Shown here: one piece after another, positions 7,451 through 63,253 of the stretch
Position numbering within the stretch: the stretch's first letter is position 1
How the letters are laid out: each line of letters opens with the position of its first letter
Assembly: GCA_964036045.1 (NCBI GenBank)
Contig: OZ038379.1
Span: 75,225,992 to 75,289,991, forward strand
DNA: 64,000 nucleotides
Source: Eutreptiella sp. 'Long Island Sound 2002'
Lineage: Eukaryota; Euglenozoa; Euglenophyceae; Eutreptiales; Eutreptiaceae
Direction of reading: 5' to 3'
Translations under genes and position numbers: made by a program
The notes under the pieces: model-generated
Database searches by the model: none
Seen by the model: only the letters and a program-made list of their open reading frames with translations
What the model was told of the DNA's origin: nothing

Positions 7451-7735
7451 ATTTTGTCTTGTAAGTGCTATTTGTTGCACAAATTGAATATTGAACCATT
7501 TGTAGGTTGTAGGTGATAGGAGATGCACGATAATGGGGCGGGGGGGTTCATAGGAGTCAAACCATAGGTGCATAACCAACCACATCTAGGGTTGAGAGGG
7601 CGGGGGACGGGGGGCAAGGAGACCCCCACTTACACCCCTTGAGCGTCTGAGTGTGGGGTTATGAGGGTGCCTTGCTTGTTGCATTGCGGGTAAGGTGAGG
7701 GAGGGCATGCCTTTTCTCTTCACAGGTTTTTAATC

Positions 7736-7766
<31 letters not shown>

Positions 7767-40008: not shown

Positions 40009-40119
40009 AAATTGGTTTTGAAAGAGGACAACGTCCTCCAGCTATGGGTATAAAGTCTGAAGTCTGAAGACTGACTTGGCATGTCGTGTTGCGGACCCAC
40101 CATTAGAGCACATCCAAGT

Positions 40120-40590
40120 AAAAGTGTGATACAAGTGCCCCCCCCCACACACACACACAGCACACACAGGAACTTGAGTTCAAGAAAATGGTTACAGCAG
40201 TGCACACCCCCCCCCCAAGACACATAGCAACTTTAAAGGAAAATGGGGATAAAAGTGCAATACCCCACCCCCCACAGACACACAGGCACTTCACCTCGGT
40301 AAAATGGTGCGTTAGGGAAAATAGGTTGGAATGGAAAATGTGGACAAGGGAAAACTGGAAAAAGTCTCATACAAGCCCCCCCCCCCAAAAAAAAACACAC
40401 AACCACACAGTTCAAGAAAATGATGGGTTGGGTTGGGGAAAAAAGGGGGTTTGAAATCCGGAAAAGGCAATTCTGGGAACAATGTGGCACAAGTACCCAC
40501 CCCCCACCCTCCCTACCCCAAAAAAAAAAACACATACCTCTTGAAAAATGGGGCGTTGGGGAAAATGTGGAAACAGGGAAAACCAAGGGA
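40120..40590. repeat. Degenerate tandem repeat of C-run / ACACAC / GGGAAAA units
   Basis: Five or so units, each with a C-tract, CACACA, then TTCAAGAAAATG-like and GGGGAAAA segments, spaced 60-120 bp. The minus strand gives spurious hydrophobic Cys/Phe frames. It lies just beyond the 3' end of the hAT-like gene. Confidence 0.6.
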
Positions 40591-40706
40591 AATGGGAAAA
40601 CCGTACTGATGCTTGCTAATGCATGAATGGACCTGCAGAGAAGGAGAACATGGGGATTGGCACAGCAGGCATGCAAAAGCACAATACCACTGCAACCCCA
40701 ACACTG

Positions 40707-43110
40707 TCATTCATCAATGAGTCCGTCCATGTCATCCACCGGCACTTGGGAACATGGTTGTGAGCTGCTGGGAGGTGCAGCAGAACGGGTAACACGATCC
40801 GTTGGGGGGACCCAGTCACAGTCCATCTGGGCTAGCAAGAGCAACACCTCTTGCATAGCAAGTTCTCGGGCTTCTCCCCGGGTCTTGCTATTTGGCACCT
40901 TCACACCCATGCTTGCCAAGCAATCACAAATGCGAGCGCGTGTCCAGTCACGCAATGTGCCTGATTTTGCAGCACATACCAACTTGGCCTGTGCACTGGC
41001 CAAGGCACGCTTTGGGTCGGACTTCCGTGGTGCCACTGCCTCCTCTTCACTATTATTTTCAGCAGCCTCAGCTGCATCATCCACAACCTGCACCACTGCC
41101 TCACCACACGGTCTTGGATCCTTGACGAAGCATGTATGGCAAACCAGACATGTGTTGCACCAGATGCGCACAGATTGCCTGCACATTGCAGAGTCCATGC
41201 CCTTTCGGAAAGTGAAGAAGTCATGGTTGCCACCATGCTGAGCATGACTACCATCTGGTTCGACCAAAGTGCCCTCAGTGTGCTCAAACGGGGTTGTCGG
41301 TCAGCGCGTCTGCGTGTTGCGCCTTGACAAGCCAGTGGCACTTCCGACCCCCCAAAAGATGGCAAAATGTCACCATCGTCTGCCACTGCAGCCTCCCCTT
41401 CCAGGCACTGCAACATGGCTGCTTCCACTGATGTATGTGGATCAATGCGATGCGAAACCCTATGCCGGGGACGCACATCGAAGCGTGCATTGGCTTCCAG
41501 CTTGCTGGCTACCTCAACACCCTGCCCCTTCGCCCACTGCCGCAAAGGTGGCAGATTACAATGCAAAGCCATGCACATGCTAAGGACATGTGTGTCCTCC
41601 ATATCATGCATACTGTTGGTGAACCTCCCACTCAACGAAATGGCACGCTCAACAGCAGCCTCAGCAGGGCAATATGTGCGCAGCAATGCCAAAACACGCC
41701 AAACATTCACCCATTGGACATGCTCCCGCTCCGGCGTCAAGGCCTCCCACATCCGGGACATGGGGGTCTTGGCGAAGGTCCGAACGACATGCTCCTTGAA
41801 GGATTCCCACTCTTCCAATGCACGAGCAGCATTAACATGCGCAGCTGCCAGCTCAGCATGGTGTGTGCCCATGAACTGCTTCAGCAGTTCCACTCCAAAT
41901 GTGGCTTGATCAGCCGCTGGTAGAGCGAGCCAACGGCCGTCGTCAAGCAACACAGCACACTCAAGAACACCCCGCGGGTCAATGGTACCCTGTCCCTCCC
42001 TGATGCCAGCAAGCAGTGTGTCTGTGACTGCCCGTGCCTCTGTGGATGGAAAAGGGGGGCTGGTTGTGCACCTCTGGCCATCGGCATCCAACCGGACCAA
42101 TTCAACGCCATGCCATGCACGTGTCACAGTTTGCTCTTTGAATTGAGTCCACGCTGGCCCCTCCTCCCTCGCCACCTTTTCCACCCGTGCCTGTAACATT
42201 TCGGTTGCCTTGGTCAAGTGGGCACCTGTTGGTGCATGCAGCTGTGCAAAGTTGTTGAAGCTGCGCGTACCATGTAGTATGTCCCCATATACCACTGCCC
42301 ATGACAGCAAACCTGCATCATGGCAATCCTCCCACACATCCTCCTCCTTGGTGGTGAGGTGCGTTTTGGAATCCAAATGCCTCGCCACCCATGGCACATT
42401 GGCCAAGAACACCTTGTTGCGACGGGCATTTGCCTCGGACCACCGGATACGGTGACTAGCAGGGATCAAACGCAACCCGCTGCGTGTATCTGGTCTGGTG
42501 TTCTCTTGGACACACCTCTGGAGGTCCTTCCACTGGCGCGCACCGTTGTACAATGCACGTTGGCGACCCACAGCTGCCAGGTAGTCAGCATGCACTTGGC
42601 CGGCAGCCTCCAAGGCAAGGCCTAGTTTGCGCTGGACCACATGGCATGGCTCACCCAAAGGGGTTAGCAAGGACAGCCACTTCACAAGCATGGCAAACAC
42701 ATTGTGCTCCATTGCCGACACATCAACAGCTTGCCTTGCAGTGGCACCACGCACACCAAGGTTAGAGGCACCATCCACCGCAAAAGCCACAACCTTCTGA
42801 GCCCACCAGGCACGATCAGGCATCCACGACAGCAGCACTGCCTCCACCTGTGCCGTCACCTCTTGTGCCTCCCCTGAAGCCACATCCACCACACCAAGGA
42901 ACACCTCACACATTCCCCCCGGCCCAGTGCCTGGAAAGAGGAGCACGATGGCATACTCATTGATGCAATGCCGTTGCCGGTGGGATCCATCCAACAACAA
43001 GGCAATGAACAATGCCCTTTGCAAGGTCTCTGACACACCATCTTGCATGGCGCCATGCATTGCGACCATGGCCCTCTCAACTATCCATCGCCGAGAGGCA
43101 TGATGGCCCG
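40707..43110 (-). CDS. hAT-type transposase domain (3' part of the OTU/USP/hAT gene)
   Basis: From the frame at 43,069 it carries hAT hallmarks: a first Asp in ALLLDGSHRQRH (D27 of this frame); a second in AVDGASNLGVRG (D99, codon 42,775-42,773); the CHVVQRKLGLAL Cys/His helix shortly after; and the C-terminal AAVERAIS with Glu (E474, codon 41,650-41,648), corresponding to the SERxFS dimerisation motif. A one-base shift near 43,090 separates it from the USP frame upstream. Frame shifts near a G6 run (about 41,352) and a C4 run (about 41,293) lead to the true C-terminus in another frame (41,267-40,707). That end has a Cys-rich segment (CNTCLVCHTCF) and an acidic region. All three catalytic residues are intact; the frame breaks may be mutations, introns or sequence errors. 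Confidence 0.75.
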
Positions 43111-45288
43111 GTTCGGAGGTAAACGAATGCGTTCACTGATTGCACGGATGGATGTGCACATGCGGAGGCCAATGTACACCTCCACCAAGCGCGACAAAAT
43201 GGCTACCGCCGCATCGCTCATAGGTACACCGAGGTCCATGCCCTCACCCCTAATGAACACAGTGCTCCTCTCTGCAACATTGACTGCACATGCAGATGCA
43301 CTGGGGCACAGTGCCCGAAAACGTTCTGCACAATGCACCCGGAAACTCTCCTCAGCGGCCAAGTGGTGGTGGCCAGGATTATCAATTTTCTTGCGGCTGC
43401 TGGTCGTGCCACGTGACACACCAAGGTGACCCTCCAGGACATCTTTACGCCATCCCTTTGGTGTAGCAATCATCATACGCATGCCCATGCCATATGTCCC
43501 ATTCACCAAGGCTGCAGCAGCCTTCGGTGGCCGCTTCACCCCACGACAATCCGTTTCAGCAGCCCATGAACAACATATGCACATTACACCCCCTTGAACA
43601 GTGAACTGCAACTGCCAATGCTCATCCACAAACGCTTGCAGTGTCTTTGGCCCTGCTGTCTGTTGCCTGGGGGCTGCCCCCATCATCACAGAAAAAGCAT
43701 TGCTCCCCGTTGCTGCCAATGCAGCAGATCGGGCTCTATCCTGTTCTATGGACTCGGAAACAGACCGGTGTGACATGCCCTGACCTGCATGCCTCTCATC
43801 CCACTCCTTCTCATGACGTGCCCGGAGATGAGCCTGGTGGGCTTGCACACGGACCTGCAGATGCTGTTTCACCCGTACCCTTTGCTTTTGTACAAGCTTT
43901 GCCACAGCTTCAATAAACTCGGGGGTGGGCTGCACATAGCCCACATGTGTGGCATATCCGGGGTCACCCGTTGGCAGCGCCATGGCTGGCAACTGGGTGT
44001 TACTTGGCACGCTCGGGGCATGCCTGTTGACAGTTGGTGTTGCAAACTGTGAGGGGGAGGGTTGTGCGTCCCCAATGTGGTTGGTAGACTCTGGGTCACC
44101 TGTTGCGAGCGCCATGGCTCGCAACGGGGTGATACTTGGCATGCTCCGGGCATGCCTGTCGACAGTTGTTGCTACAGACTGAGGGGGGCCATCACGTACA
44201 CCACGAATGCTTTGTAAACCGCCCTGTGACAGACCCACCATCTCCGTGGGAGTACGCTCATACAATAGGAATGTCACCTTTCGTGAAGTGGCTGGGGGCC
44301 GTCCCCTGCTCACGGACGCATCATCACACAACCACCACACATCGCGACCTAAAATGTGAGCAATAAAGTGCCCTTGCTCCCTAGTTGGTCCAACGTGTAG
44401 CACCATGGCCCGAAGGGACCAATGGTACCCATTGATATCCACAAACTCATGATCCACCGTCAAGCTATGAAGCTGTTGATTGTGGACATGGAGTGGAGCC
44501 CACTTGTTGAACACTAGTAACGATAGTACAATGGCCTCCTGGAGATCCCCCACACAGCCACATGGGGGGGCGTTTGAAGGGCGGCCCAACGAACGGCCCC
44601 TCATTCCCTCCCTCATTCGCACCCGCACGCTCTGGCCCTGGTTAGTAACATGCAGGACTTGGGCGGGCATTCCCAACTCACCTCCAGCCTGGTGGACTTT
44701 CACGTCACACACTGGGCACCGCTGCCACCATTGCTCATGAGACAAGCAGTCCGACAGAGAACGAACACCAGCACGAACCAGTTTCGGTACCATGTGCTTC
44801 CAACACTCAGCCATCTCGGACTGCTGCATCCACTCAAACTTGGGAGCCCTCCTGACACATTGACACCGACCACTACACTGGCACACAGTAACAGTTGGCT
44901 GTCCCTCATCCGCCAGCAGGCGTGCAACGGCATGTGGACGGTACACAGCACCTGTCATACCTGCCACAATGTCACCCCAACATGTAGCCCACACCGCCAC
45001 ATCATCTGGGCACTCATCATGGAAGGCCTCGTGTCCCCCAGAGGCTAGCAGGAGGCATCGCAACGTTGTACCAAGCCAACAGCAATTGTGACTTGGGGGG
45101 TTCGCCATGCCACATGGCCGTTGCCGTGCTCCACCTTGCGGACCGCCACTAACCTGCAGGCAGGCGGAAGGCATGTTGCTGCAAGAACTTGCGGTGCTAA
45201 GCAGGCAAACTCTGCCACTCTCCACGGCCGTAAAGCACCACCAATCGCCTATCCCCCTTCCATGGGCAAGTAGCATGCCATGCCCCAT
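43081..45288 (-). CDS. USP-type ubiquitin hydrolase plus zinc finger, upstream of hAT transposase
   Basis: The Cys box is GMANPPSHNCCWLGTTLRC (residues 60-78, catalytic Cys 69 or 70). Paired cysteines of the USP zinc ribbon follow (136/138/142/144 and 191/194). The His box is QGHFIAHILGRDVWWLCDD (His 307, Asp 322/323), ending in the FLLYER strand. This is a complete peptidase C19 arrangement. A linker with a duplicated ~42-residue unit follows (about 370-455; DRHARSMPS / NRHAPSVPS). Then comes a probable TTF/BED-like zinc finger (CICCSW ... GHHH) that normally begins hAT transposases. A one-base shift at about 43,090 leads into the transposase frame. The start is uncertain, because the frame overlaps the end of the upstream OTU ORF by 92 bp. 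The natural product is probably one protein across both. Confidence 0.75.
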   Translation of the reverse strand: MGHGMLLAHGRGIGDWWCFTAVESGRVCLLSTASSCSNMPSACLQVSGGPQGGARQRPCGMANPPSHNCCWLGTTLRCLLLASGGHEAFHDECPDDVAVWATCWGDIVAGMTGAVYRPHAVARLLADEGQPTVTVCQCSGRCQCVRRAPKFEWMQQSEMAECWKHMVPKLVRAGVRSLSDCLSHEQWWQRCPVCDVKVHQAGGELGMPAQVLHVTNQGQSVRVRMREGMRGRSLGRPSNAPPCGCVGDLQEAIVLSLLVFNKWAPLHVHNQQLHSLTVDHEFVDINGYHWSLRAMVLHVGPTREQGHFIAHILGRDVWWLCDDASVSRGRPPATSRKVTFLLYERTPTEMVGLSQGGLQSIRGVRDGPPQSVATTVDRHARSMPSITPLRAMALATGDPESTNHIGDAQPSPSQFATPTVNRHAPSVPSNTQLPAMALPTGDPGYATHVGYVQPTPEFIEAVAKLVQKQRVRVKQHLQVRVQAHQAHLRARHEKEWDERHAGQGMSHRSVSESIEQDRARSAALAATGSNAFSVMMGAAPRQQTAGPKTLQAFVDEHWQLQFTVQGGVMCICCSWAAETDCRGVKRPPKAAAALVNGTYGMGMRMMIATPKGWRKDVLEGHLGVSRGTTSSRKKIDNPGHHHLAAEESFRVHCAERFRALCPSASACAVNVAERSTVFIRGEGMDLGVPMSDAAVAILSRLVEVYIGLRMCTSIRAISERIRLPPNRAIMPLGDG

Positions 45289-48277
45289 TGCGGACCACTA
45301 CAGGTTGCCTATCGACACGGTACCTATGCCCCGGACGGCTAATGCCATCTGGGCACTGCCTTCTCCCTGGTCTGCCACGCGGACCACTGCCAACGCCTCC
45401 CTCTTCCACCCAGATCTCAGCACACACGTGCCGCCCCGTGGAGAACACTACTGACCACGGGGTAGTATCAAAACGATGTTGATGGGGAGCTGTCGTCTCA
45501 TTGCATGACAGCTGTATTGTAGTCCATGTGAACCACTTTGGTACCAACTTCCTTGCAATGCGGTTCACCATCATCACAAGGGGGCCATGCTCTTGTGTCC
45601 CTTGCACAAGCCGCGACCGGCGACAATCACCTTTCGCTGTATGTCCTTTGCTCCCACCGACACCCAACTGCAACCTTCGCAAGGAGAACTGCCCTAACGT
45701 CTCTCTAGTGTACAGCAGTGTCCCCATTATGCCATGCAAGACACACAAAGGTGCTACCTGCAACCAGCGGTCGTAGCTGGCGCCCCGGTAATGTCCTCCC
45801 GGCCGCAGCCGGTCACGTTCGGCCTCACCAACGACGATCACGCATGCTTGTTCACAGGCTTCCTCCATCTCCTGGATCGTATGGTACACTTTGGCTTCTC
45901 CCAAACCCGGACTCCAAGCTGCAGCTGACGTCACAGCAGTGTCTGGGCCAAACCTTGAATCCATTATTTTGTGTGTGTTTGTACGCAACAACACAACCTT
46001 CCCATCGATGTGGTGGGCGAGATGTCGAAAATGGTCGGGCTTTCCCCCCCAGGGCTTCCCTTCCCAATTATTCGCTTCCAGGGCCCTACAAACACTTAGA
46101 GCACCCTCCTTAACCTCTATCCCACACCGTTCCCTGTACATTGTGGTTGCCTGGACTCGGAGGTCCACTGCAGTTAAGGGGGTCTCACTGCGGAGCGCAT
46201 GGAGGCTGAGGGCAGTTGCATAAAAAAAACATGCACCAACGACATACTCATCACGTGCCAACCGTAACTTCAGTTGCCGGATGGTAGGCAGCTCCCTACT
46301 GGCAGGAGCCTTGATTTTATCCACCTCAACCTTTTGGTTAGGATTGTCACAGTCAATTGCTGCGGCCCCATCCGCCCCTAGCCGCACATGCTTTGCAGCA
46401 GGCATGGGGTTGGGATCCCTAGGCATTGCTTTCTTGCCTGAGGGGGGGCTGTTACATGGCTCTGAGCCATCCGTGCTGGACTGACCAGGTGCCACGACAG
46501 TGCATGCCGTCCCCATACTGCTATCCATATTTGGGGATGCCATTTCACTATCTTGCCCACTCAATGAAACCTGTGGTGGGCGCTGTGCTAGGGGCACAGG
46601 GGATCCCTGATCAGAGAGTGACTCCGCACCGCAACCGGGGTGTGGGGTGAGGCATTCTTCTGCAGCACCTGGCCCCATGTTCTCCATTACCTCTCGGCCC
46701 TGGTTCTCATTGTCAGCATGCACACCACCTGCAACTTCGGGTGCACCGGGGGGTCCACATCGCAGCGCACAGGCTGGGACGTTGGGCGCACTTGGATCAC
46801 CTCTGCGGGGATCCTGGTCAGCAGTCATAGGAGTGGAGGCAGGGGGGGGTGGGGGGGGGGGGGGTTGCTGTGCTTCACCAAGGGTGCCAGCTGTGCCTAT
46901 GGCCTCCTTTGTGCCCCCTTCCAGGTGCATGGCACATGCATCGTTGGGCGTACCGTTGTCATCAAGGACACCGACAGATGCATCTTGGGATCCGAGTCGC
47001 AGCGCACAGGCTGGGACGTCGGACTGGCTTGGATCGCCTCTGGGGGGATCTTGGTCAGGTGTCGGGGGTCCTGGGGGGGGGGGGGGTTGCACCCCAGCGT
47101 CTGCCATGGCTTCCAATAGAAGCTCCATGGCCTCCTCCCCTGCATCATCTGTCCATGCATTATTCACCACACGGGCACCAGCATGCAAGTATCCCAAGTG
47201 GTTGCGGGGTACCTCGGGGCTGAAAGGGGTGCACCTCAGTATCACATCGCTACTCTCTTGCATGGGAATCCGCATGGACTCTGCAAAGTGGCGTCCCACC
47301 GTATAGGCAGCCACCAGGCTCTCCTTTGACAGGGGCTCCCGCCGTTGCTCCCCCAAGCCTTGCATCGCAATGCGGACACACCGGGCAATGCCATGGCACG
47401 TTGTCATCAGTGCTTGGTCCAACTGTTGCTGTCTCGTCAGCCGCACCGTCATAGGTGCTGGATTGGGTGGGACGCTGGGTTGAGGTCCGGGACTGCAAGT
47501 GGACGTTGAGCTTTCGGGCAACAGGGAGCTCCGTCCACTACCCCCGGATCCAGGGGTCCCCTGGCCAGTGGGACCTGTGCCACCGGCTGGCGCTGACACT
47601 CTTTGTCGAGCACCCCCGGATCGTGGGGTCCCCTGTGCTTTCCATCCCTCCCCGTTGGCCGGCAACAGTGAGTTCCGGCGGCTCACAGATGCCACCAAAT
47701 CACTTGTGAATGGCCGTGCTGCACTTGTTGCCTGTGGCCAAAAGTACTGCATTGTGCCCAAGGGTACTCTCCGTACTTTCTCCACATACATCCTCTCCAC
47801 AGTGGGTGTGGGGTACTTGGTCTCCCCTCTCCAGAAAGGCCATGAGTCCACAAGTGGCAAGGCATACACAATGTCATTCCATGCCTCTAGCCAAGCAACT
47901 TTGCTAACGCTCATGGGGTGTCCACCAATGGCCCCTCGTCGACTCCCCACTTTCCCACGGTCTTGCTCATACTTTTTTATCCGGTCCCAGAGGCCTGAGG
48001 CTACCTTCTGGTACTCCACAACAACACCTCCATCCTCCCGCGTGCACTTGGGACTGCCCTCTTGGCTGTACATCAGGCGGCACAGTGCTGCAAGTCCATG
48101 GGTATGGACGACATCAAGGGAACATGTCGCCATGTACATTGCCAACTTCCTGTAATAGATGGTCTCCTGTTCTGGTGGGGCATGCCACCCTGCCTCGCCG
48201 AGGGCTAGACGGAATCCCATTTTCATCTGGGCAGCTTCCATGGTGTCCCATGGGGGCCATTCAGGATGCTGGGCCAT
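45197..48277 (-). CDS. OTU-type deubiquitinase ORF, N-terminal part of the OTU/USP/hAT gene
   Basis: A 1,026-residue ORF. Residues 1-210 form a folded-looking region of unknown family (WPPWDTMEAAQ at the start, WLEAWNDIVYALPLVDSWPFW near 130-150). Residues 210-660 are a Pro/Gly/Ser-rich linker. An OTU domain spans about 665-835: GACFFYATALSL (Cys, near 678) for the DGxCLF box, KPWGGKPDHFRHLAHHI for the WGG..EL.ALA signature, and GGHYRGAS (His near 827). The ORF ends in TAG at 45,197, overlapping the USP ORF, so a frameshift or intron near 45.2 kb is needed to join them. The ATG at 48,277 is the first in frame, about 190 bp past the 88-bp array. Linker frames cross G-runs (46,850; 47,080), and the frame is preserved across them here. 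Confidence 0.75.
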   Translation of the reverse strand: MAQHPEWPPWDTMEAAQMKMGFRLALGEAGWHAPPEQETIYYRKLAMYMATCSLDVVHTHGLAALCRLMYSQEGSPKCTREDGGVVVEYQKVASGLWDRIKKYEQDRGKVGSRRGAIGGHPMSVSKVAWLEAWNDIVYALPLVDSWPFWRGETKYPTPTVERMYVEKVRRVPLGTMQYFWPQATSAARPFTSDLVASVSRRNSLLPANGEGWKAQGTPRSGGARQRVSAPAGGTGPTGQGTPGSGGSGRSSLLPESSTSTCSPGPQPSVPPNPAPMTVRLTRQQQLDQALMTTCHGIARCVRIAMQGLGEQRREPLSKESLVAAYTVGRHFAESMRIPMQESSDVILRCTPFSPEVPRNHLGYLHAGARVVNNAWTDDAGEEAMELLLEAMADAGVQPPPPPGPPTPDQDPPRGDPSQSDVPACALRLGSQDASVGVLDDNGTPNDACAMHLEGGTKEAIGTAGTLGEAQQPPPPPPPPASTPMTADQDPRRGDPSAPNVPACALRCGPPGAPEVAGGVHADNENQGREVMENMGPGAAEECLTPHPGCGAESLSDQGSPVPLAQRPPQVSLSGQDSEMASPNMDSSMGTACTVVAPGQSSTDGSEPCNSPPSGKKAMPRDPNPMPAAKHVRLGADGAAAIDCDNPNQKVEVDKIKAPASRELPTIRQLKLRLARDEYVVGACFFYATALSLHALRSETPLTAVDLRVQATTMYRERCGIEVKEGALSVCRALEANNWEGKPWGGKPDHFRHLAHHIDGKVVLLRTNTHKIMDSRFGPDTAVTSAAAWSPGLGEAKVYHTIQEMEEACEQACVIVVGEAERDRLRPGGHYRGASYDRWLQVAPLCVLHGIMGTLLYTRETLGQFSLRRLQLGVGGSKGHTAKGDCRRSRLVQGTQEHGPLVMMVNRIARKLVPKWFTWTTIQLSCNETTAPHQHRFDTTPWSVVFSTGRHVCAEIWVEEGGVGSGPRGRPGRRQCPDGISRPGHRYRVDRQPVVVRNGAWHATCPWKGDRRLVVLYGRGEWQSLPA

Positions 48278-48467
48278 TTGTAGGAGGCCGCCTCACCACG
48301 CTTAAAGGTTGTGGGCTCTTGCGTGGTCCACATGGTGCAGTTCGATGGGCACTTGTTGGTGACCACAACTCAGGAGGACAATCTGGTCCCGGACCCCGAT
48401 ACTCGAAGTGGTAGGCTGCTTCCTCCTTGGGTTCATGCGCGGGCCCACTTGATGCCACCGCGTGGTA

Positions 48468-49500
48468 TGAACGTAGACCCTGGTCGAGGCGCAACGGCCG
48501 GGGACCAAGGGCAGACTTCTGCGCCTCAAGGGCTAGCAGTAGCTGGGGAGGGGTGAGGGATGGACGATGACCGAGGTCGAGGCGCGGCGGCCCAGGACCA
48601 AGGGCGAACTCCTGCGGCTCGGCGGCCTGCAGTGGTCGTGGTGGGGTATGGACGACGACCGAGGTAGAGGCGCGGCGGCCAAGGACGAAGGGCGAACTCC
48701 TGCGGCTCGGCGGCCTGCAGTGGTTGTGGTGGGGTATGGACGACGACCGGGGTCGAGGCGCGGCGGCCAAGGACCAAGGGCGAACTCCTGCGGCTCGGCG
48801 GCCTGCAGTGGTCGTGGTGGGGTATGGACGACGACCAAGGTCGAGCTGCGGCGGCCAAGGACCAAGGGCGAACTCCTGCGGCTCGGCGGCCTGCAGTGGT
48901 TGTGGTGGGGTATGGACGACGACCGGGGTCGAGGCGCGGCGGCCAAGGACCAAGGGCGAACTCCTGCGGCTCGGCGGCCTGCAGTGGTCGTGGTGGGGTA
49001 TGGACGACGACCAAGGTCGAGCTGCGGCGGCCAAGGACCAAGGGCGAACTCGTGCGGCTCGGCGGCCTGCAGTGGTTGTGGTGGGGTATGGATGAGGACC
49101 GAGGTCGAGGCGCGGCGGCCAAGGACCAAGGGCGGACTCCTGCGGCTCGGCGGCCTGCAGTGGTTGTGGTGGGGTATGGACGACGACCGAGGTCGAGGCG
49201 CGGCGGCCAAGGACCAAGGGGGAACTCCTGCGGCTCGGCGGCCTGCAGTGGTTGTGGTGGGGTATGGACGACGACCGAGGTCGAGGCGCGGCGGCCAAGG
49301 ACCAAGGGGGAACTCCTGCGGCTCGGTGGCCTGCAGTGTGTGGGTGGGGGGACGGCTAATGACCGTGGTCGCGGCGCTGTGGTCAGGGACCAAGGGCCAA
49401 CTTTTGTGGCTCAAGGGCAAGCAGTAGGTGGGTTGGGGGATGCGGGATGCCCCTGTTTGAGGCGCTGCGGCCAGCGGCCAAGGGGCAACTCCTGCAGCTC
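48468..49500. repeat. 88-bp minisatellite upstream of the OTU/USP/hAT gene
   Basis: AGGGCGAACTCC-type markers fall at 48,601, 48,689, 48,777, 48,865, 48,953, 49,041, 49,129, 49,217 and 49,305, exactly 88 bp apart nine times. Diverged copies lie on both sides. The core is CTCCTGCGGCTCGGCGGCC plus TGGTGGGGTATGGACGAC. Because 88 is not a multiple of three and no stop is present, both strands read open in several frames; I do not treat these as genes. The same unit occurs at 62,815-63,150. Confidence 0.95.
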
Positions 49501-49625
49501 AAAGGCTAGCACAGGTGAGGTACAGGTATCTGGGTCGTAGACGCTATGGTCAAGACCACAGACAACTTCTTCACCTGAATGGTGAAGTTAGTGGCAGAAA
49601 GGTCGTAACAAAGATTGCACGAAGA

Positions 49626-52600
49626 GGGGTGAAATATTTCACGGAGGCCTCAAGTAATTCACGGAGGGGCATAAATAATTCACGGAGGCATCAAATAATT
49701 CACGGAGGGGCATCAATAATTCACGGAGGGGTGAAATAATTCACGGAGGGGCATAAATAATTCACGGAGGCATCAAATAATTCACGGAGGGGAATAGGTA
49801 ATTCACGGAGGGGTGAAATAATTCACGGAGGGGCATAAATAATTCACGGAGGCATCAAATAATTCACGGAGGGGCATAAGAAATCCACGGAGGGGTGACA
49901 TAATTCACGGAGGCGCGTAAATGATTCACGGAGGGGTGAAATAATTCACGGAGGGGCGTAAATAATTCACGGAGGGGTGAAATAATTCACGGAGGGGAGT
50001 AAATAATTCACGGAGGGGTGAAATAATTCACGGAGGGGCAGAAATAATTCATGGAGGGGTGTAAACATTCACGGAGGGGTGAAAGAATTCACAGAGGGTT
50101 GAAATAATTCCGGGAGGGGCGTAAATAATTCACGGAGGGCCCAAATAACTCACGGAGGGGCGTAAAAAATTCACGGAGGCATCAAATAATTCACGGAGGG
50201 GCACAAATAATTCACGGAGGCATCAAATAATTCACGGAGGGGTGAAATAATTCACGGAGGGGTGTAAATAATTCACAGAGGCATCAAATAATTCACGGAG
50301 GGGCATAAATAAGTCACGGAGGGGTGAAAGAATTCACGGAGGCATCAAATAATTCACGGAGGGGCATGTATAATTCACGGAGGGGTGAAATGATTCACGG
50401 AGGGGCATAAATAATTCACGGAGGGGTGAAATAATTCACGGAGGGGCGTAAATAATTCACGGAGGCATCAAATAATTCACGGAGGGGCATAAATAATTCA
50501 CGGAGGGCCCAAATAATTCACGGAGGGGCGTAAATAATTCACGGAGGCATCAAATAATTCACGGAGGGGCGTAAATAATTCACGGGGGCATCAAATGATT
50601 CACGGAGGGGCGTAAATAATTCGCGGAGGCATCAAATAATTCACGGAGGGGCGTAAATAATTCACGGAGGCATCAAATAATTCACGGAAGGCCCAAACAA
50701 TTCACGGAGGGGCATAAATAATTCACGGAGGGGTGAAATAATTCACGGAGGGGCATAAATAATTCACCGAGGGCCAAAATAATTCACAGAGTGGCGTTAA
50801 TAATTCACGGCGGGCCCAAAAAATTCACGGAGGGGCGTAAATAATTCACGGAGGCATCAAATAATTCACGGGGGGGCACAAATAATTCACGGAGGCATCA
50901 AATAATTCACAGAGGGGTGAAATAATTCACGGAGGGGTGAAAAAATTCACGGAGGGGCATAAATAATTCACGAAGGCATCAAATAATTCACGGAGGGGCA
51001 TGAATAATTCACGGAGGCATCAAATAATTCACGGAGGGGCATGAATAATTCACGGAGGCATCAAATAATTCACCGAGGGGCGTAAATAATTCACGGAGGG
51101 GTGAAATAATTCACGGAGGGGCGTAAATAATTCACGGAGGGGTGAAATAATTCACGGAGGGGCAGAAATAATTCATGGAGGGGTGAAAAAACTCACGGAG
51201 GGGTGAAAGAATTCACAGAGGGTTGAAATAATTCCGGGAGGGGCGTAAATAATTCACGGAGGGCCCAAATAACTCACGGAGGGGCGTAAATAATTCACGG
51301 AGGCATCAAATAATTCACGGAGGGGCACAAATAATTCACGGAGGCATCAAATAATTCACGGAGGGGTGAAATAATTCACGGAGGGGTGTAAATAATTCAC
51401 AAAGGCATCAAATAATTCACGGAGGGGCATAAATAAGTCACGGAGGGGTGAAATAATTTACGGAGGCATCAAATAAATCATGGAGGGGCATGTATAATTC
51501 ACGGAGGGGTGAAATGATTCACGGAGGGGCATAAATAATTCACGGAGGGTTGAAATAATTCACGGAGGGGCGTAAATAATTCACGGAGGCATCAAATAAT
51601 TCACGGAGGGGCATAAATAATTCACGGTGGGCCCAAATAATTCACGGAGGGGCGTAAATAATTCACGGAGGCATCAAATAATTCACGGAGGGGCGTAAAT
51701 AATTCACGGGGGCATCAAATGATTCACGGAGGGGCGTAAATAATTCGCGGAGGCATCAAATAATTCACGGAGGGGCGTAAATAATTCACGGAGGCATCAA
51801 ATAATTCACGGAAGGCCCAAACAATTCACGGAGGGGCATAAATAATTCACCGAGGGGTGAAATAATTCACGGAGGGGCATAAATAATTCACGGAGGGCCA
51901 AAATAATTCACAGAGTGGCGTTAATAATTCACGGAGGGCCCAAAAAAATCACGGAGGGGCGTAAATAATTCACGGAGGCATCAAATAATTCACGGGGGGG
52001 CACAAATAATTCACGGAGGCATCAAATAATTCACAGAGGGGTGAAATAATTCACGGAGGGGCATAAATAATTCACGAAGGCATCAAATAATTCACCGAGG
52101 GGCATGAATAATTCACGGAGGCATCAAATAATTCACGGAGGGGCATGAATAATTCACGGAGGCATCAAATAATTCACGGAGGGGCGTAAATAATTCACGG
52201 AGAAATCAAATAATTCACGGAGGGCCCAAATAATTCACGGAATAATTCACGGAGGCATCAAATAATTCACGGAGGGGCGTAAATAATTCACGGAGAAATC
52301 AAATAATTCACGGAGGGCCCAAATAATTCACGGAGGGGCATAAATAATTCACGGAGGGGTGAAATGATTCACGGAGGGGCGTAAAGAATTCACGGAGGCA
52401 TCAAATGATGCACGGAGGGGCGTAAATAATTCACGGAGGCATCAAATAATTCACGGAGGGGCGTAAATAATTCACGGAGGCATCAAATAATTCACGGAGG
52501 GGCGTAAAAGTTTCACGGAGGCATGAAATAATTCACGGAGGGGCGTAAATAATTCACGGAGGCATCAAATAATTCACGGAGGGGCATAAATAATTCACGG

Positions 52601-55600
52601 GGGCATCAAAAAATTCACGGAGGGGCGTAACTAATTCACGGAGGCATCAAATAATTCACGGAGGGCCCAAATAATTCACGGAGGGGCACAAATAATTCAC
52701 GGAGGGGTGAAATAATTCACGGAGGGGCGTAAATAATTCACGGAGGCATCAAATAATTCACGGAGTGGCGTAAATAATTCATTGAGGCATCAAATAATTC
52801 ATGGAGGGCCCAAATAATTCACGGAGGGGCATAAATAATTCACGGAGGGGTGAAAGAATTCACGGAGGGGCGTAAATAATTCACGGAGGCATCAAGCAAT
52901 TCACGGAGGGGCGTAAATAATTCACGGAGGCATCAAATAATTCACGGAGGGGCATAACTAATTCACGGAGGGGCATAAATAATTCACGGAGGCATCAAAT
53001 AATTCACGGACGGGCATAAATAATTCACGGAGGGCCGAAGTAATTCACGGAGGGGCACAAATAATTCACGGAGCGGTGAAATAATTCACGGAGGGGCGTA
53101 AATAATTCACGGAGGCATCAAATGATTCACGGAGGGCCGTAAATAATTCACGGAGGCATCAAATAATTCACGGAGGGGCATAAATAATTCACGGAGGGCC
53201 CAAATAATTCACGGAGGGGCATAAATAATTCACGGAGGGCCCAAATAATTCACGGAGGGGCGTAAATAATTCACGGAGGCATCAAATATTTCACAGAGGG
53301 GCGTAAATAATTCACGGAGGGGTGAAATAATTCACGGAGGGGCATAAACAATTCACGGAGGGGCGTAAATAATTCACGGAGGCAGCAAATAATTCACGGA
53401 GGGGCGTAAATAATTCACGGAGGCATCAAATAATTCACGGAGGGGCATAACTAATTCACGGAGGGGTGAAATAATTCACGGAGGAATCAAATAATTCACG
53501 GAGGGGCATAAATAATTCACGGAGGGCCGAAATAATTCACGGAGGGGCATAAATAACTCTCGGAGGGGTAAAATAATTCACGAAGGGGCGTAAATAATTC
53601 ACGGAGGCATCAAATGATTCACGGAGGGCCGTAAATAATTCACGGAGGCATCAAATAATTCACGGAGGGGCGTAAGTAATTCACGGAGGGGTGAAATAAT
53701 TCACGGAGGGGCATAAATAATTCACGGAGGGGCGTAAATAATTCACGGAGGCAGCAAATAATTCACGGAGGGGCGTAAATAATTCACGGAGGCATCAAAT
53801 AATTCACGGAGGGGCAATAATAATTTACGGAGGCATCAAATAATTCACGGAGGGGCATAAAGAATTCACGGAGGGCCCAAATAATTCACGGAGGGGCATA
53901 AATAATTCACGGAGGGCCCAAATAATTCACGGAGGGGCGTAAATAATTCACGGAGGCATCAAATAATTCACGGAGGGGCGTAAATAATTCACGGAGGGGT
54001 GAAATAATTCACGGAGGGGCATAAATAATTCACGGAGGGGCGTAAATAATTCACGGAGGCAGCAAATAATTCACGGAGGGGCGTAAATAATTCACGGAGG
54101 CATCAAATAATTCACGGAGGGGCAATAATAATTTACGGAGGCATCAAATAATTCACGGAGGGGCATAAATAATTCACGGAGGGCCCAAATAATTCACGGA
54201 GGGGCGTAAATAATTCACGGAGGCATCAAATAATTCACGGAGGGGCGTAAATAATTCACGGAGGGGTGAAATAATTCACGGAGGGGCATAAATAAGTCAC
54301 GGAGGGGCGTAAATAATTCACGGAGGCATCAAATAATTCATGGAGGGGCGTAAATAATTCACGGAGAAATCAAATAATTCACGGAGGGGCATAAATAATT
54401 CACGGAGGCATCAAATAATTCACGGAGGGGCGTAAATGATTCACGGAGGCATCAAATAATTCACGGAGGGGCGTAAATAATTCACGGAGGCATCAAATAA
54501 TTCACGGAGGGGCATAAATAATTCACGGAGGGGTGAAATAATTCACGGAGGGGCGTAAATAATTCACGGAGGCATCAAATAATTCACGGAGGGCCCAAAT
54601 AATTCACGGAGGGGCATAAATAATTCACGGAGGGGTGAAATAATTCACGGAGGGGCGTAAATAATTCACGGAGGCATCAAATAATTCACGGAGGGGCGTA
54701 AATAATTCACGGAGGCATCAAATAATTCACGGAGGGCCCAAATAATTCACGGAGGGGCATAAATAATTCACGGAGGGGTGAAATAATTCACGGAGGGGCG
54801 TAAATAATGCACGGAGGCATCAAATAATTCACGGAGGAGCATAAATAATTCACGGAGGGGTGAAATAATTCACGGAGGCATCAAATAATTCGCGGAGGGG
54901 CATGTATAATTCACGGAGGGGTGAAAAAATTCACGGAGGGGCATAAATAATTCACGGAGGGGTGAAATAATTCACGGAGGGGCGTAAATAATTCACGGAG
55001 GCATCAAATAATTCACGGAGGGGCATAAATAATTCACGGAGGGCCCAAATAATTCAAGGAGGGGCGTAAATAATTCACGGAGGCATCAAATAATTCACGG
55101 AGGGGCGTAAATAATTCACGGAGGGGTGAATCAATTCACGGAGGGGCGTAAATAATTCACGGGGGCATCAAATAATTCACAGAGGGCCCAAATAATTCAC
55201 GGAGCGGCATAAATGATTCACGGAGGGGCGTAAATAATTCACGGAGGCATCAAATAATTCACGGAGGGCCCAAATAATTCACGGAGGGGCATAAATAATT
55301 CACGGAGGGGTGAAATAATTCACGGAGAGGCGTAAATAATTCACGGAGGCATCAAATATTTCACGGAGTGGCGTAAATAATTCACGGAGGCATCAAATAA
55401 TTCACGGAGGGGTAATTTTTTCACGGAGGCATCAAAGAATTCACGGAGGGCCCAAACAATTCACGGAGGGGCATAAATAATTCACGGAGGGGTGAAAAAA
55501 TTCACGGAGGGGCGTAAATAATTCACGGAGGCATCAAGGAAATTCACGGAGGGGCGTAAATAATTCACGGAGGCATCCAAAAATTCACGGAGGGGCGTAA

Positions 55601-58092
55601 ATGATTCACGGAGGCATCAAATAATTCACGCAGGGCCCAAATAATTCACGGAGGGGCATAAACAATTCACGGAGGGGTGAAAGAATTCACGGAGGGGTGA
55701 AATAATTCACGGAGGGGCGTAAATAATTCACGGAGGCACCAAATGATTCACGGAGGGGCGTAAATAATTCACGGAGGCATCAAATAATTCACGGAGGGGC
55801 GTAAATAATTCACGGAGGCATCAAATAATTCACGGAGGGGCATAAATTATTCACGGAGGTGTGAAATAATTCACGGAGGGGCGTAAATAATTCACGGAGG
55901 GCCCAAGAAATTCACGGAGGGGCGTAAATAATTCACGGAGGGGCATAAATAATTCACGGAGGCATCAAATAATTCACGGAGGGGCGTAAATAATTCACGG
56001 AGGGGTGAAAAAATTCACGGAGGGGCATAAATAATTCACGGAGGGCCCAAATAATTCACGGAGGGGCATAAATAATTCACGGAGGGGTGAAAAAATTCAC
56101 CGAGGCATCAAATAATTCACGGAGGGGCATAAATAATTCACGGAGGGGTGAAATAATTCACGGAGGGGCGTAAATAATTCACGGAGGGGCGTAAATAATT
56201 CACGGAGGGCCCAAATAATTCACGGAGGGGCATAAATAATTCACGGAGGGGTGAAATAATTCACGGAGAGGCGTAAATAATTCACGGAGGCATCAAATAA
56301 TTCACGGAGGGGCGTAAATAATTCACGGAGGCATCAAATAATTCACGGAGGGCCCAAATGATTCACGGAGGGGCATAAATAATTCACGGAGGGGTGAAAA
56401 AATTCACGGAGAAGCGTAAATAATTCACGGAGGCATCAAATAATTCACGGAGGGCCCAAATAATTCACGGAGGGGCATAAATAATTCACGGAGGGGTGAA
56501 ATAATTCACGGAGAGGCGTAAATAATTCACGGAGGCATCAAATAATTCACGGAGGGGCGTAAATAATTCACGGAGGCATCAAATAATTCACGGAGGGCCC
56601 AAATGATTCACGGAGGGCCCAAACAATTCACGGAGGGGCATAAATAATTCACGGAGGGGTGAAATAATTCACGGAGGGGCGTAAATAATTCACGGAGGGC
56701 CCAAATAATTCACGGAGGGGCGTAAATAATTCACGGAGGGGCATAAATAATTCACGGAGGCATCAAAAAATTTACGGAGGGGCGTAAATAATTCACGGAG
56801 GGGTGAAATAATTCACGGAGGGGCATAAATAATTCACGGAGGGCCCAAATAATTCACGGAGGGGCATAAATAATTCACGGAGGGGTGAAAAAATTCACGG
56901 AGGCATCAAATAATTCACGGAGGGGCATAAATAATTCACGGAGGGGTGAAATAATTCACGGAGGGGCGTAAATAATTCACGGAGGCATCAAATAATTCAC
57001 GGAGGGCCCAAATAATTCACGGAGGGGCATAAATAATTCACAGAGGGGTGAAATAATTCACGGAGAGGCGTAAATAATTCACGGAGGCATCAAATAATTC
57101 ACGGAGGGGCGTAAATAATTCACGGAGGCATCAAATAATTCACGGAGGGCCCAAATGATTCACGGAGGGGCATAAATAATTCTCGGAGGGGTGAAAAAAA
57201 TTCACCGAGGGGCGTAAATAATTCACGGAGGCATCAAATAATTCACGGAGGGCCCAAATAATTCACGGAGGGGCATAAATAATTCACGGAGGGGTGAAAT
57301 AATTCACGGAGAGGCGTAAATAATTCACGGAGGCATCAAATAATTCACGGAGGGGCGTAAATAATTCACGGAGGCATCAAATAATTCACGGAGGGCCCAA
57401 ATGATTCACGGAGGGGCATAAATAATTCACGGAGGGGTGAAAAAATTCACGGAGGGGCGTAAATAATTCACGGAGGGGCATAAAATAATTCACAGAGGGG
57501 CGTAAATAATTCACGGAGGCATCCAAAAATTCACGGAGGGGCGTAAATGATTCACGGAGGCATCAAATAATTCACGCAGGGCCCAAATAATTCACGGAGG
57601 GGCATAAACAATTCACGGAGGGGTGAAAGAATTCACGGAGGGGTGAAATAATTCACGGAGGGGCGTAAATAATTCACGGAGGCACCAAATAATTCACGGA
57701 GGGGCGTAAATAATTCACGGAGGGGCATAAATAATTCACGGAGGCATCAAATAATTCACGGAGGGGCGTAAATAATTCACGGAGGGGTGAAATGATTCAC
57801 GGAGGGGCATAAATAATTCACGGAGGGCCCAAATAATTCACGGAGGGGCATAAATAATTCACGGAGGGGTGAAATAATTCACGGAGGCATCAAATAATTC
57901 ACAGAGGGGCATAAATAATTTACGGAGGGGTGAAATAATTCACGCATGGGCGTAAATAATTCACGGAGGGCCCAAATGATTCACGGAGGGGCGTAAATAA
58001 TTCGTGGAGGGCTGAAATAATTCACGGAGGGGCATAAATAATTCACGGAGGGCCGAAATAATTCACGGAGGGGCATAAATAATTCACGGAGG
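49626..58092. repeat. 8.5-kb satellite array of 20/21-bp monomers
   Basis: About 400 head-to-tail monomers share TTCACGGAGG and end in AATAA or similar. The main variants are GGCGTAAATAA and GGCATAAATAA (21-bp monomers), CATCAAATAA, GGTGAAATAA and GCCCAAATAA (20-bp). Longer segments are repeated: a marker (GCAGAAATAATTCATGG) recurs at 50,038 and 51,162 (1,124 bp apart), and another (GCATCCAAAAATTCACGG) at 55,573 and 57,519 (1,946 bp apart). GGCAGCAAATAA recurs at 53,391, 53,750 and 54,059. There is no coding potential and strong strand asymmetry (G-rich plus strand). Confidence 0.97.
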
Positions 58093-58760
58093 TATGGTCC
58101 TGTAGTTGTTAGTAACTGCATGTATAGTATGAAGTATCACGTCCCGGGTCCTGGCGGCGATTGTTCGGCATCCAAAGGGCCCGTTATCCCATACGAGGCG
58201 CACTGGGTGCCGGCTGCGACGGTCACTACCACAGTGGCAGTGGCATACACGGCCAACATAGGCGTCACACGACGACCGAGGTGGTCCCACAGGTCGAAAG
58301 CGACCACAAAGATCCATCAGGCTACCCCAGGCTTCCCAAGGCCGCATGCTAGGGGAGAGTCCCGACGGGTCCTTCCTTGGGTGCACCATGTCCATATCCA
58401 CGACGCGAGTCCAGAGTGGTAAAGCCGAACGAGCTCCTCCATAAGGGATCGGGCATCAAGGCCGTCTTTTCCCTCGCCCCATTACCACGAAGGCCATGCA
58501 TGGGGGAGTCCCCATGCAGTCTGGGCGGAGGCGTCGACTCCTCAAACCACGGTTTCCCAGGCAGACTGACCGAGGTCAGGACACCGGAGGTCGCCACCCG
58601 ACTGCAAGTGCGTCTGCAAGACGGTAGGCTCACACTGGGACTGACAGTGGCGGACCGCTGGGAGTGTAGTCAGGCAACTGGGCTTCCCGCCTTGCGCCGT
58701 CAGGATCTCAGCACATCACAGCCACTAGGGCACACGGTATCACGGGCACTCAAACATGAC
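58093..58760. other. Unique stretch between satellite and duplication, no recognised gene
   Basis: Short frames on both strands without motifs. A 105-residue minus frame (58,401-58,084) and a 150-residue plus frame (58,377-58,829) overlap and look like chance. Confidence 0.5.
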
Positions 58761-59192
58761 CAACTTGGGTCACCTCATGGGGACCCTGGGTACGGCACGA
58801 AGCGGGGCGGGGGGGGGGGGTTTCTGTAGAGCCCCTGACTTGGTTCATGACACCCTGAAGCACGGAAGCAAACACTGCACCTAGACGAGGGGCGGACAAT
58901 AGAGACCCTCAGATTGTGGCCGGCAACCCATGACGTTCCATGTACCATCCAAAGTCTATGTTCTAGGGGTGCAAGTCGTTGCGCCAAGGCAAGGACATCA
59001 CACCAACTTGGGTCACCTCATGGGGACCCTGGGTACGTCAGGAAGCGGGGCAGGGGTGGGGGGTTTCTGTAGAGCCCCTGACTTGGTTCATGACACCCTG
59101 AAGCACGGAAGCAAACACTGCACATAGACGAGAGGTGGACAAAAGAGACCCTCAGATTGTGGCCGGCAACCCATGACGTTCCATGTACCATC
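58761..59192. repeat. Two tandem copies of a 243-bp unit
   Basis: CAACTTGGGTCACCTCATGG begins copies at 58,761 and 59,004. About 190 bp of each (to 58,953 and 59,192) is nearly identical, ending ATGACGTTCCATGTACCATCC. No gene. Confidence 0.9.
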
Positions 59193-59243
59193 CAGTCTCA
59201 ACGTCCGATGTCCCACGCACACCTCCACATGCGCCACACTTGG

Positions 59244-59294
59244 TTAGGGTTAGGGTTAGGGTTAGGGTTAGGGTTAATGTTAGGGTTAGGGTTG
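59244..59294. repeat. Interstitial telomere-type TTAGGG tract
   Basis: Eight TTAGGG-like units with one variant (TTAATG) at 59,274, read on the plus strand. It lies 1.2 kb from the satellite and just beyond the 3' end of the helicase gene. Confidence 0.9.
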
Positions 59295-59342
59295 AGCTGT
59301 CCAATGTTCCACGGAGCTAGGGTCATGTCATGATTTCCGAAC

Positions 59343-62300: not shown

Positions 62301-62801
62301 ATCAGCCCAAGGGGTGGTGAATCCATCGGTTGGGTTCGTGTCGATGTCATAGTCCACGTGGGCAAGGGTTTCCGCAAAGGTCCGGGCCTTGTCTTTGGCT
62401 TGCGGCGGGCCTTGGCCTGTGCCTTGTGGTGGGGCCTGACCTTTGTCTTGTGGCGGGCCTTGGCCTGTGCCTTGTGGGGGGGCCTGACCTTTGCCTCGTG
62501 GGGGGCCATGGCCTTTGCCTTGTGGATGCGCTTGGCCTTTGCCTGTGCCTTGCTGGGGGCCTTTGCCTTGCGCAGGGCCATGCCCTTTGCCTTGCTGTGT
62601 GCCTTTGCCTTGTGCAGGGCCATGCCCTTTGCCTTGCTGAGGGCCATGGCCTTTGCCTTGCTGAGGGCCTTTGCCTTGGGCAAGGCCATACCCTTTGCCA
62701 TGCTGTGGGCCTTTGCCTTGCTGTGGGCCTTTGCCTTTGCCGTGCTGAGGGCCTTTGCCTTGCCAATGGCCATGGGGCTGTGTTTGCCCTCCGTTTGGCA
62801 T
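59343..62801 (-). CDS. SF1 (UPF1/DNA2-like) helicase gene with one in-frame TAG
   Basis: The ATG at 62,801 begins a Gly/Gln/Lys-rich repeat region (62,775-62,385), then a ~190-residue domain of unknown type (FAETLAHVDYDIDTN ... RSLREEIRTG). After a TAG at 61,793-61,791, the same frame continues directly into the helicase: Q motif LNPSQALAV, Walker A GGAGTGKSET, motif Ia LVTAPTNAQVDNL, motif II FVDESS (about residue 200 from the GTG at 61,772), motif III FCGDAGQLRP, motif IV LTQQFRMDVPLA, motif V DRYQGLQAPVV and motif VI TSRAQSELHLFG. These are SF1B helicase motifs. About 290 C-terminal residues are of unknown function. The TAG lies just before the Q motif inside otherwise continuous coding sequence. 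It means a nonsense mutation, readthrough or error; the helicase part alone is intact. It is preceded by the same 88-bp array as the OTU/USP/hAT gene. Confidence 0.8.
62385..62775 (-). repeat. Coding repeat, GKGPQ / GKGHGPAQ type
   Basis: About 130 residues made of QGKGPQ, QGKGHGPAQGKG and PPQGTGQGPPQ units in the N-terminal part of the helicase gene. All three minus-strand frames are open here, as expected from the GCCTTTGCCTTG-like DNA repeat. It is probably a disordered, positively charged linker. Confidence 0.75.
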
Positions 62802-62814
62802 GTTATCTGGGTCG

Positions 62815-63150
62815 GGGCGCTGTGGCCGGGGACCAGAACTCTTGCGGCTCAGAGGCTTGCAGTAGGTGAGTTGGGGGTTGAAAGACGACCCTGGTCGGGG
62901 CGCTGTGGCCGGGGACCGAGGGCGAACTCCTGCGGCTCGGCGGCCCGCAGTGGGTGGGTACGGAGAGGAACGACGACCGTGGTCGGGGCGCTGTGGCGGG
63001 GGACCGAGGGCGAACTCCTGCGGCTCAGCGGCCCGCAGTGGGTGGGTACAGAGGGGAACGACGACCCTGGTCGGGGCGCTGTGGCCGGGCACCGAGGGCG
63101 AACTCATGCGGCTCAGCGGCCCGCAGTGGGTGAGAGATGAACGCGTGGCT
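62815..63150. repeat. 88-bp minisatellite upstream of the helicase gene
   Basis: AGGGCGAACT markers at 62,919, 63,007 and 63,095 are exactly 88 bp apart, with a diverged copy at the left. The sequence (GGTCGGGGCGCTGTGGC, CTCCTGCGGCTC, GCGGCC-GCAGTGGG) is homologous to the array at 48,468-49,500. The outer borders also match: GACGCTATGGTC near 49,540 versus GACGCAACGGTC near 63,185. Confidence 0.9.
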
Positions 63151-63253
63151 GTTGGGGCAGGTCCAACTCAGATGTCTAGGTCAGAGACGCAACGGTCTAG
63201 ACCCAAGACGCACTTCCTCGCCTCAAGGGGGAGGTTGGAAATAAAGGAGTGCC

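Follow-up and report, generated by a model that had tools for sequence, protein, structure and literature searches.

The window, a stretch of 64,000 nucleotides of contig OZ038379.1 from the euglenophyte Eutreptiella sp. 'Long Island Sound 2002', contains most of a mobile element that is present in many similar copies in this genome. The element is predicted to be a giant hAT-type transposon in which a USP deubiquitinase is fused to the transposase, and which possesses an additional upstream open reading frame (ORF), ORF1, with an OTU-like and a TET/JBP-like region. This reading, which includes that the enzymes counter the silencing of the element, is in our judgment slightly better than an even bet. 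The strongest surprise is the USP within the transposase polypeptide next to an upstream ORF with OTU-like and TET-like regions; the weakest links are the identities of the OTU and of the oxygenase.

Ends, copies, and internal order of the element

The window copy of this hAT-type element is 26,260 bp long and reaches from position 40039 to position 66298 in window numbering, the latter being the 5' end, which was located by reading the DNA beyond the window. It is bordered by a perfect 14-bp terminal inverted repeat (TIR), CAGCTATGGGTATA, of the CAG...CTG type with CA...TG ends, and GAGGACGT flanks it on both sides. A search for pairs of TIRs and target-site duplications (TSDs) limited to the DNA of the window yielded no pair at six settings because the 5' end is outside of the window. 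The limits of 40.7 to 48.3 kb, given in the initial annotation as 40707..48277, were ruled out by these ends, and the real extent is about 3.5-fold longer.

The genome searched was an assembly of 2,280,300,865 bases (2.28 Gb) in 2,205 contigs. Places found without alignment scoring are designated as “first-look candidates” and should not be taken as scored copies. With ORF3 of the transposase as query, 1,931 first-look candidates appeared, of which 60 were scored, resulting in 62 transposase rows, most of them 95 to 97% identical across ORF3 residues 3 to 614. An open frame of 1,530 to 1,536 aa was listed for 21 of the 62 rows, 2 of these 21 with stops inside the match. First-look candidates per query numbered approximately 1,900 to 2,900 in this one genome. 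A 61-base sequence from the 5' end gave 758 first-look candidates, and the best 40 of the 758 were all identical across the 61 bases, as expected for the top of a longer list.

Ten copies, selected for an open transposase frame, were fetched. A sharp 3' end, TATACCCATAGCTG, was common to 8 of the 10, with flanks that diverged beyond it. All five copies with both ends contained perfect 8-bp duplications, which were GAGGACGT for the window copy and CTGCATCC, GTGGAGGC, AGGAGACG, and CTCTGGTC for the others. These five copies were between 9.3 and 32.5 kb long, the three longest 20 to 32 kb. Copy c1b was 20,387 bp in size (duplication AGGAGACG), and copy c1a 32,470 bp by its coordinates (duplication CTCTGGTC); for c1a, reading covered the 3' part as well as the 5' end, and the two ends were paired through their equal 8-bp flanks. 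Copies c3a (13,802 bp) and c3b (9,313 bp) were without internal parts. Shared sharp ends, duplications in five of five cases, and the repeated 5' end demonstrate a mobile element; the repeated boundaries foreseen in the initial annotation were found, and a single-copy locus can be dismissed.

Protein searches, in each of which approximately 8,000 candidates with the most words in common with the query were scored, led to 42 relatives with ORF3 as query, 12 with ORF2, and 27 with the latter half of ORF1. All of them originated from the European Nucleotide Archive (ENA) except P0043, which is encoded by the window itself. The clusters contained up to 231 members, indicating repetition. By eye, P0024, P0031, P0047, and P0071 resembled joins of element parts by internal deletion.

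The order inside the element is ORF-A, a UPF1-like helicase, a 41-bp satellite, an 88-bp array, ORF1, and ORF2, with the following features in the window:

40031..40038, strand not assigned: TSD of the 3' side, GAGGACGT in element orientation
40039..40055, plus strand: TIR at the 3' end of the element, CAGCTATGGGTATAAAG, its initial 14 bases equal to the 5' TIR
40039..64000, minus strand: element part within the window, from TIRs at both ends and matching 8-bp flanks GAGGACGT; 2,298 bp continue past the window (L029)
40821..40982 (approximate), minus strand: SAP-like C-terminal helical domain
41103..41228 (approximate), minus strand: Cys-rich stretch that follows the transposase and precedes the SAP-like domain, from 71% identity between subfamilies
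41531..43017 (approximate), minus strand: putative hAT core and C-terminal AAVERAISLRG region, frame-broken here, from the D/D/E columns
43381..43653 (approximate), minus strand: putative CxxC-type zinc finger preceding the core, from the sequence and 59% identity between subfamilies
43081..45297, minus strand: ORF2 with USP, linker, and zinc finger, joined with ORF3 and ORF4 in ten fetched copies
44260..45108, minus strand: predicted USP/UCH deubiquitinase domain, Pfam PF00443
45197..48292, minus strand: ORF1, 1,031 aa, its stop preceding the usual end (...SHRKFLQQHAFRLPAG in relatives)
45200..45766, minus strand: TET/JBP-like 2-oxoglutarate (2OG)-Fe(II) oxygenase region (PHQH...EIWVE...GAWHAT...RRLVVLY), from a small hidden Markov model (mini-HMM)
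45767..46291, minus strand: OTU-like region (GACFFYA, WGG, GGHYRGA), from motif columns and Foldseek OTU rows
48552..49500, strand not assigned: internal tandem array with a repeat unit of 88 bp
49632..58092, strand not assigned: 41-bp satellite array inside the element, 8.5 kb
59346..61790, minus strand: UPF1-like superfamily 1 helicase ORF, Pfam AAA_11 1.1e-13 and AAA_12 2.2e-9
61794..63167, minus strand: repeat-rich frame without Pfam match, which in copy c1b forms one frame with the initial part of the helicase
63257..64000 and on to 64264 in L029, minus strand: ORF-A, function not assigned, no Pfam match

The helicase was also present in the full copy c1b, there split over two frames. The 41-bp satellite upstream of ORF1 was also found in copies c11, c1a, and c24, and the 88-bp array in these three and in c12; the satellite is probably a major source of the length variation between the copies. 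Between helicase and satellite, a telomere-like (GGTTAG)n repeat of 8.7 copies was located inside the element at positions 59242-59293.

The USP-transposase frame

As initially described, the ORFs are collinear on one strand, with four open frames in line on the minus strand, ORF1 (48292-45197), ORF2 (45297-43081), ORF3 (43132-40901), and ORF4 (41300-40707). In the 10 fetched copies, selected for an open frame, the latter three form a single frame of 1,530 or 1,536 aa. The order in this transposase frame is USP, linker, zinc finger, hAT core, Cys-rich stretch, and SAP-like domain. Zinc finger, core, Cys-rich stretch, and tail are within one frame in the relatives P0001 and P0004, and the USP is joined to zinc finger and core in P0006 and P0017. 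The predicted product is a fused USP-transposase polypeptide encoded by a hAT-type transposon.

ORF1 is separate from this frame. It uses another frame, overlaps the start of the transposase frame, and is 1,031 to 1,073 aa long in its open forms. Those ORF1 relatives that reach the end share the stop position, with ...RLPA(G/R/V) or ...FRLHAGA as final residues, and this common termination rules out a single gene spanning three ORFs. From the initial proposal of OTU, USP, and transposase in one gene, USP plus transposase in one frame could be kept, and the OTU-like region had to be moved into the separate, overlapping ORF1.

The window copy is decayed. It contains a stop codon at a position where all nine other copies read have a serine, and its transposase ORF is broken in frame at two sites compared to P0001.

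The USP is the best-supported domain, with a significant Pfam match that argues for its assignment. The UCH profile PF00443 matched ORF2 of the window with an E value of 4e-6 (27.1 bits at a cut-off of 23.9), and was also above the cut-off in the relative P0044 (6.7e-7) and in an open copy (7.4e-6); just positions 196-254 of the 254 in the profile, its His-box end, were matched. Pfam gave no match for ORF1, ORF3, and ORF4 of the window. The Cys box NxCWLG was present in three of three relatives holding it, a fourth Cys row being misaligned, and reads NWCWLGTTLQ in P0044, P0046, and subfamily II. The USP histidine was kept in 7 of 8 and the aspartate in 8 of 8 covering rows, so that the USP of the initial annotation was confirmed by profile and catalytic residues alike. 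In the window copy, the box is NCCWLG, meaning that the residue preceding the catalytic cysteine has changed; nine other copies have NWC.

A hAT core with D, D, and E had also been claimed. Among the covering rows, the respective residues were present in 22 of 23, 22 of 23, and 19 of 20, and together with the element ends and the 8-bp duplications they speak for a hAT-type transposase.

ORF1 and its conservation between subfamilies

ORF1 has a conserved N-terminal region, followed by the OTU-like and the oxygenase region. In the motif columns of the OTU-like part, the cysteine was kept in 17 of 18 and the histidine in 17 of 22 covering rows, the catalytic role being assigned by motif. A Foldseek search with an AlphaFold model of ORF1 that was of low confidence placed OTU chains at ranks 1 to 8 and in 28 of the best 50 rows, with a best E value of 0.12; 2 further rows were labeled just “deubiquitinase,” and many of the rows were near-identical nairovirus entries. 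The OTU identity is probable.

A TET/JBP mini-HMM scored 9 of 10 relatives above shuffled sequences, with E values that refer to a database of one. This model was composed of three reference sequences that were written down after the family was known, so that a bias is possible; Pfam recognizes the three as Tet_JBP at an E value of about 1e-4, below its curated cut-off. A piece of TET2 aligned in register with the oxygenase region (P 0.21). The first histidine was present in 16 of 19, the second in 14 of 15, and the C-terminal arginine in 13 of 14 covering rows. The TET/JBP identity is probable.

The order of OTU, oxygenase, and USP was kept in subfamily II, with about half of the residues identical. 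Its copy L031 has an open ORF1 of 1,073 aa followed by the start of the USP, which is cut by an inserted retroelement-like sequence. The test for constraint between the subfamilies used one pair, c1b (subfamily I) versus L031 (II), and four segments of ORF1 and USP, without the hAT core. The proportions of replacement and synonymous differences (pN/pS) were 0.324/0.742 for the OTU, 0.273/0.715 for the oxygenase, 0.279/0.736 for the USP, and 0.379/0.766 for the N-terminal segment. Replacement differences were well below the synonymous ones in all four segments, with pS near or at saturation. Within subfamily I, the pooled pN/pS ratios were 0.36 for the OTU (6 copies), 0.38 for the oxygenase (9), 0.44 for the USP (10), 0.40 for the hAT part (10), and 0.66 for the region from the Cys-rich stretch to the tail (9), and undefined for the zinc finger, these copies being selected for an open ORF2.

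Identity between the subfamilies in ORF1 was 31 and 37% for the linkers, 45 to 51% for the OTU, and 53 to 57% for the oxygenase region. In the transposase frame, it was 50 to 53% for the linkers, 78% for the core, 85% for the dimer region, 71% for the Cys-rich stretch, 59% for the zinc finger, and 41% for the SAP-like domain. By this comparison, the putative domains appear mostly better conserved than the linkers.

The insertion in L031 starts at about position 4005 of this copy and contains reverse-transcriptase-like and recombinase-like ORFs, which appeared DIRS-like by eye.

Possible functions, alternative explanations, and known systems

How the parts may act together can be outlined as follows. 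The USP, acting in cis, would deubiquitinate the transposase or else the chromatin at the bound ends, by which the transposase would avoid degradation and the transposition complex would avoid ubiquitin-marked silencing. The ORF1 protein would work on the chromatin of the element, with ubiquitin marks as the target of its OTU and methylated cytosine as that of its oxygenase, and the zinc finger and the SAP-like domain may anchor the transposase on the DNA. An anti-silencing role is plausible on this basis. The more far-reaching version, a complete anti-silencing kit of OTU plus USP, a TET/JBP-derived enzyme of the HxH type, and a UPF1-like helicase, with the order of OTU, oxygenase, and USP under selection between diverged subfamilies, is tentative, its chances falling just short of even. 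Mutants in the domains of a single element would make transposon defense against ubiquitin- and methylation-based silencing directly testable. As far as we know, the element also broadens the known size and gene content of hAT elements.

The ratio of observed to expected CpG was 0.51 to 0.60 in the genes of the element compared to 0.75 in the left flank, and that of TG/CA 1.41 to 1.64 compared to 1.28; the entire c1b element including its satellite gave 0.62 and 1.29, respectively. CpG depletion with an excess of TG/CA is consistent with a methylated element. The 41-bp satellite itself had a CpG ratio of 1.28.

A number of observations weigh against the proposed anti-silencing element. CpG depletion hits repeats generally. 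Pfam found neither OTU (PF02338) nor Tet_JBP (PF12851) in 25 aligned sequences or in two domain pieces, no hAT core in the transposase sequences, and no SAP domain. The HxD metal motif was replaced by HxH (18 rows) or HxN (1 row) in 19 of 19 covering rows, none of which contained the canonical HxD...H iron triad, and its first histidine was kept in 16 of these 19, so that an oxygenase activity is doubtful. The AlphaFold models had a mean predicted local distance difference test (pLDDT) value of 36.5 for ORF1 and 39.1 for the transposase, the latter well predicted just for the C-terminal helices and one N-terminal helix. Between the subfamilies, the USP His-box stretch was with 54% barely better conserved than the following linker with 49%. 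Neither c1b nor the window copy has an intact helicase, with a broken frame in the former and an interruption in the latter. Finally, a full-length ORF1 was never open in the 10 copies of subfamily I picked for an open transposase, the longest oxygenase frame being 212 to 916 aa, unlike the window copy with its open ORF1 of 1,031 aa; a frame of at least 1,000 aa occurred in 12 of 105 rows of subfamily II. The ORF1 protein may be supplied in trans to the picked copies, or there may be slippage at C/G tracts, or ORF1 may be decaying in subfamily I.

The element may be as described, with the OTU or the oxygenase or both misread, the USP as sole true deubiquitinase, and conserved domains of another kind in ORF1. 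The missing profile matches in the 25 sequences and the exchange of HxD for HxH would agree with this, as would the result that an HMM from two cellular OTUs did not score the OTU-like region above shuffles. The OTU chains at the top of the Foldseek list, the conserved Cys and His columns, the oxygenase mini-HMM, and the constraint on both regions argue in the other direction, and we regard a misreading as rather unlikely. The OTU protease of the initial annotation is probable by its motif columns and not by a profile match, and the profile search recovered the UCH family and neither OTU nor hAT. Structure prediction brought OTU chains to the top, but with low pLDDT and an E value of 0.12, and it gave no clear RNase H-like fold for the core.

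Alternatively, the enzymes may be accessories for self-processing or translation control, with deubiquitinases that mature or stabilize proteins and a helicase that resolves or replicates a large element. The fusion of USP and transposase and the UPF1-like helicase would fit, and a role of Ulp1 or OTU in repair during transposition has been suggested in a part of Bao et al. 2010 (PMC2836005). The junction of ORF1 and ORF2 fits as well: an ATG in the ORF2 frame is located inside the final ORF1 codons (ten copies, nine plus the window copy, with c3b off the pattern; window positions 45149-45174). Nine of these ten copies retain CAGGTTAGT at the stop of ORF1, c1c having CACGTTAGT instead. Reinitiation, frameshifting, or splicing are possible at this junction. 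A TET/JBP-like domain beside an OTU-like one would be left unexplained, however, and we give self-processing perhaps three chances in ten.

The transposase may also belong not to hAT but to KDZ (Dileera/Zisupton), another group of large transposases with 8-bp duplications. Such duplications are described for a Dileera family in a part of Kojima 2025 (PMC12730594), and giant KDZ elements of algae in a section of an Ectocarpus paper (PMC12477816); the lack of a Pfam hAT match in the transposase sequences agrees with KDZ. Pfam did not match KDZ in these sequences either, nor the hAT dimerization region PF05699. A hAT dimerization mini-HMM, built from pieces that Pfam recognizes as PF05699, had its best stretch in register on AAVERAISLRGRF, the AAVERAISLRG region, in 6 of 7 relatives, and elsewhere in P0002. 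This stretch comprised 35 to 36 residues in P0028, P0005, P0007, and P0004 and 16 to 17 in P0021 and P0001, with scores from 5.3 to -3.2 bits in the six, which were not above the best values reached by shuffled P0001 and P0004 (500 shuffles per sequence; 1.2 and 6.8 bits). With hhalign, Hermes scored best among three references (P 0.034), and the motif DGASNLG...CHVVQRKLGLAL resembles hAT. The hAT-type assignment is based on the 8-bp duplications, the CAG...CTG TIRs, the D/D/E columns, and motif resemblance, and a KDZ origin seems improbable. Concerning the tail, the top two VIA rows in a structure search were SAP-bearing chains.

Three unrelated host genes adjoining by chance, which a reading of this single window could not have excluded, can be discarded almost with certainty, since the arrangement is collinear in 10 fetched copies and inside units bounded by TIRs and TSDs.

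The element shares with the hAT elements Hermes, Ac, and the TTF type the 8-bp duplications, short CA(G)...(C)TG TIRs, D/D/E residues, a putative zinc finger before the core, and an AAVER motif near its end. It differs by 20 to 32 kb in the three longest copies, the N-terminal USP, the SAP-like tail, extra ORFs, an internal helicase and satellites, and a divergence too large for Pfam. The initial annotation did not contain the oxygenase-like part of ORF1, the tail resembling SAP, the helicase, the satellites, or the decay of the window copy.

Single enzymes of these kinds, OTU, Ulp1, C19, or TET/JBP, are known from transposons. According to the portion of Kojima 2025 (PMC12730594) considered here, TET/JBP occurs in seven transposon lineages of rust fungi, including hAT7. 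This is likewise a hAT DNA transposon bearing such a dioxygenase, but it makes 7-bp duplications, whereas those here are 8 bp long and the oxygenase-like region is of the HxH type and lies in one ORF together with an OTU-like region. None of the terms OTU, ubiquitin, and protease appears in the main text of Kojima 2025. Excerpts of Bao et al. 2010 (PMC2836005) report an OTU or Ulp1 protease in Ginger1, an OTU in Helitrons, and a peptidase C19 (USP) with a Trichomonas vaginalis transposase_11. These are also DNA transposons with a deubiquitinase-type protease, one of them C19, but they belong to other transposase classes, one protease per element is named, and the OTU or Ulp1 of Ginger1 is C-terminal. 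Giant DNA transposons were reviewed by Arkhipova and Yushenova 2019 (PMC6431247), and giant KDZ/EnSpm elements of algae are covered in the Ectocarpus paper (PMC12477816); as far as these texts extend in part, their elements are similar in large size and extra genes and different in superfamily. The former mentions OTU once, for Helentrons, and ubiquitin and hAT never; the latter is without the words OTU and ubiquitin. A literature search restricted to open-access papers returned none describing USP, OTU, and TET/JBP together, which is weak evidence of absence, and the combination is new among the papers searched.

Outside of the element, the window contains a piggyBac-type transposase at positions 31471-32856 on the minus strand (DDE_Tnp_1_7, 6e-13) with a weak PHD-like tail (0.027, below the cut-off) and, by eye, a second piggyBac-like fragment at 33602-34288 on the plus strand. 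An isolated fragment of eukaryotic large-subunit rRNA at 7611-7866 on the plus strand (E value of 1.3e-20) was the sole Rfam match in the window.

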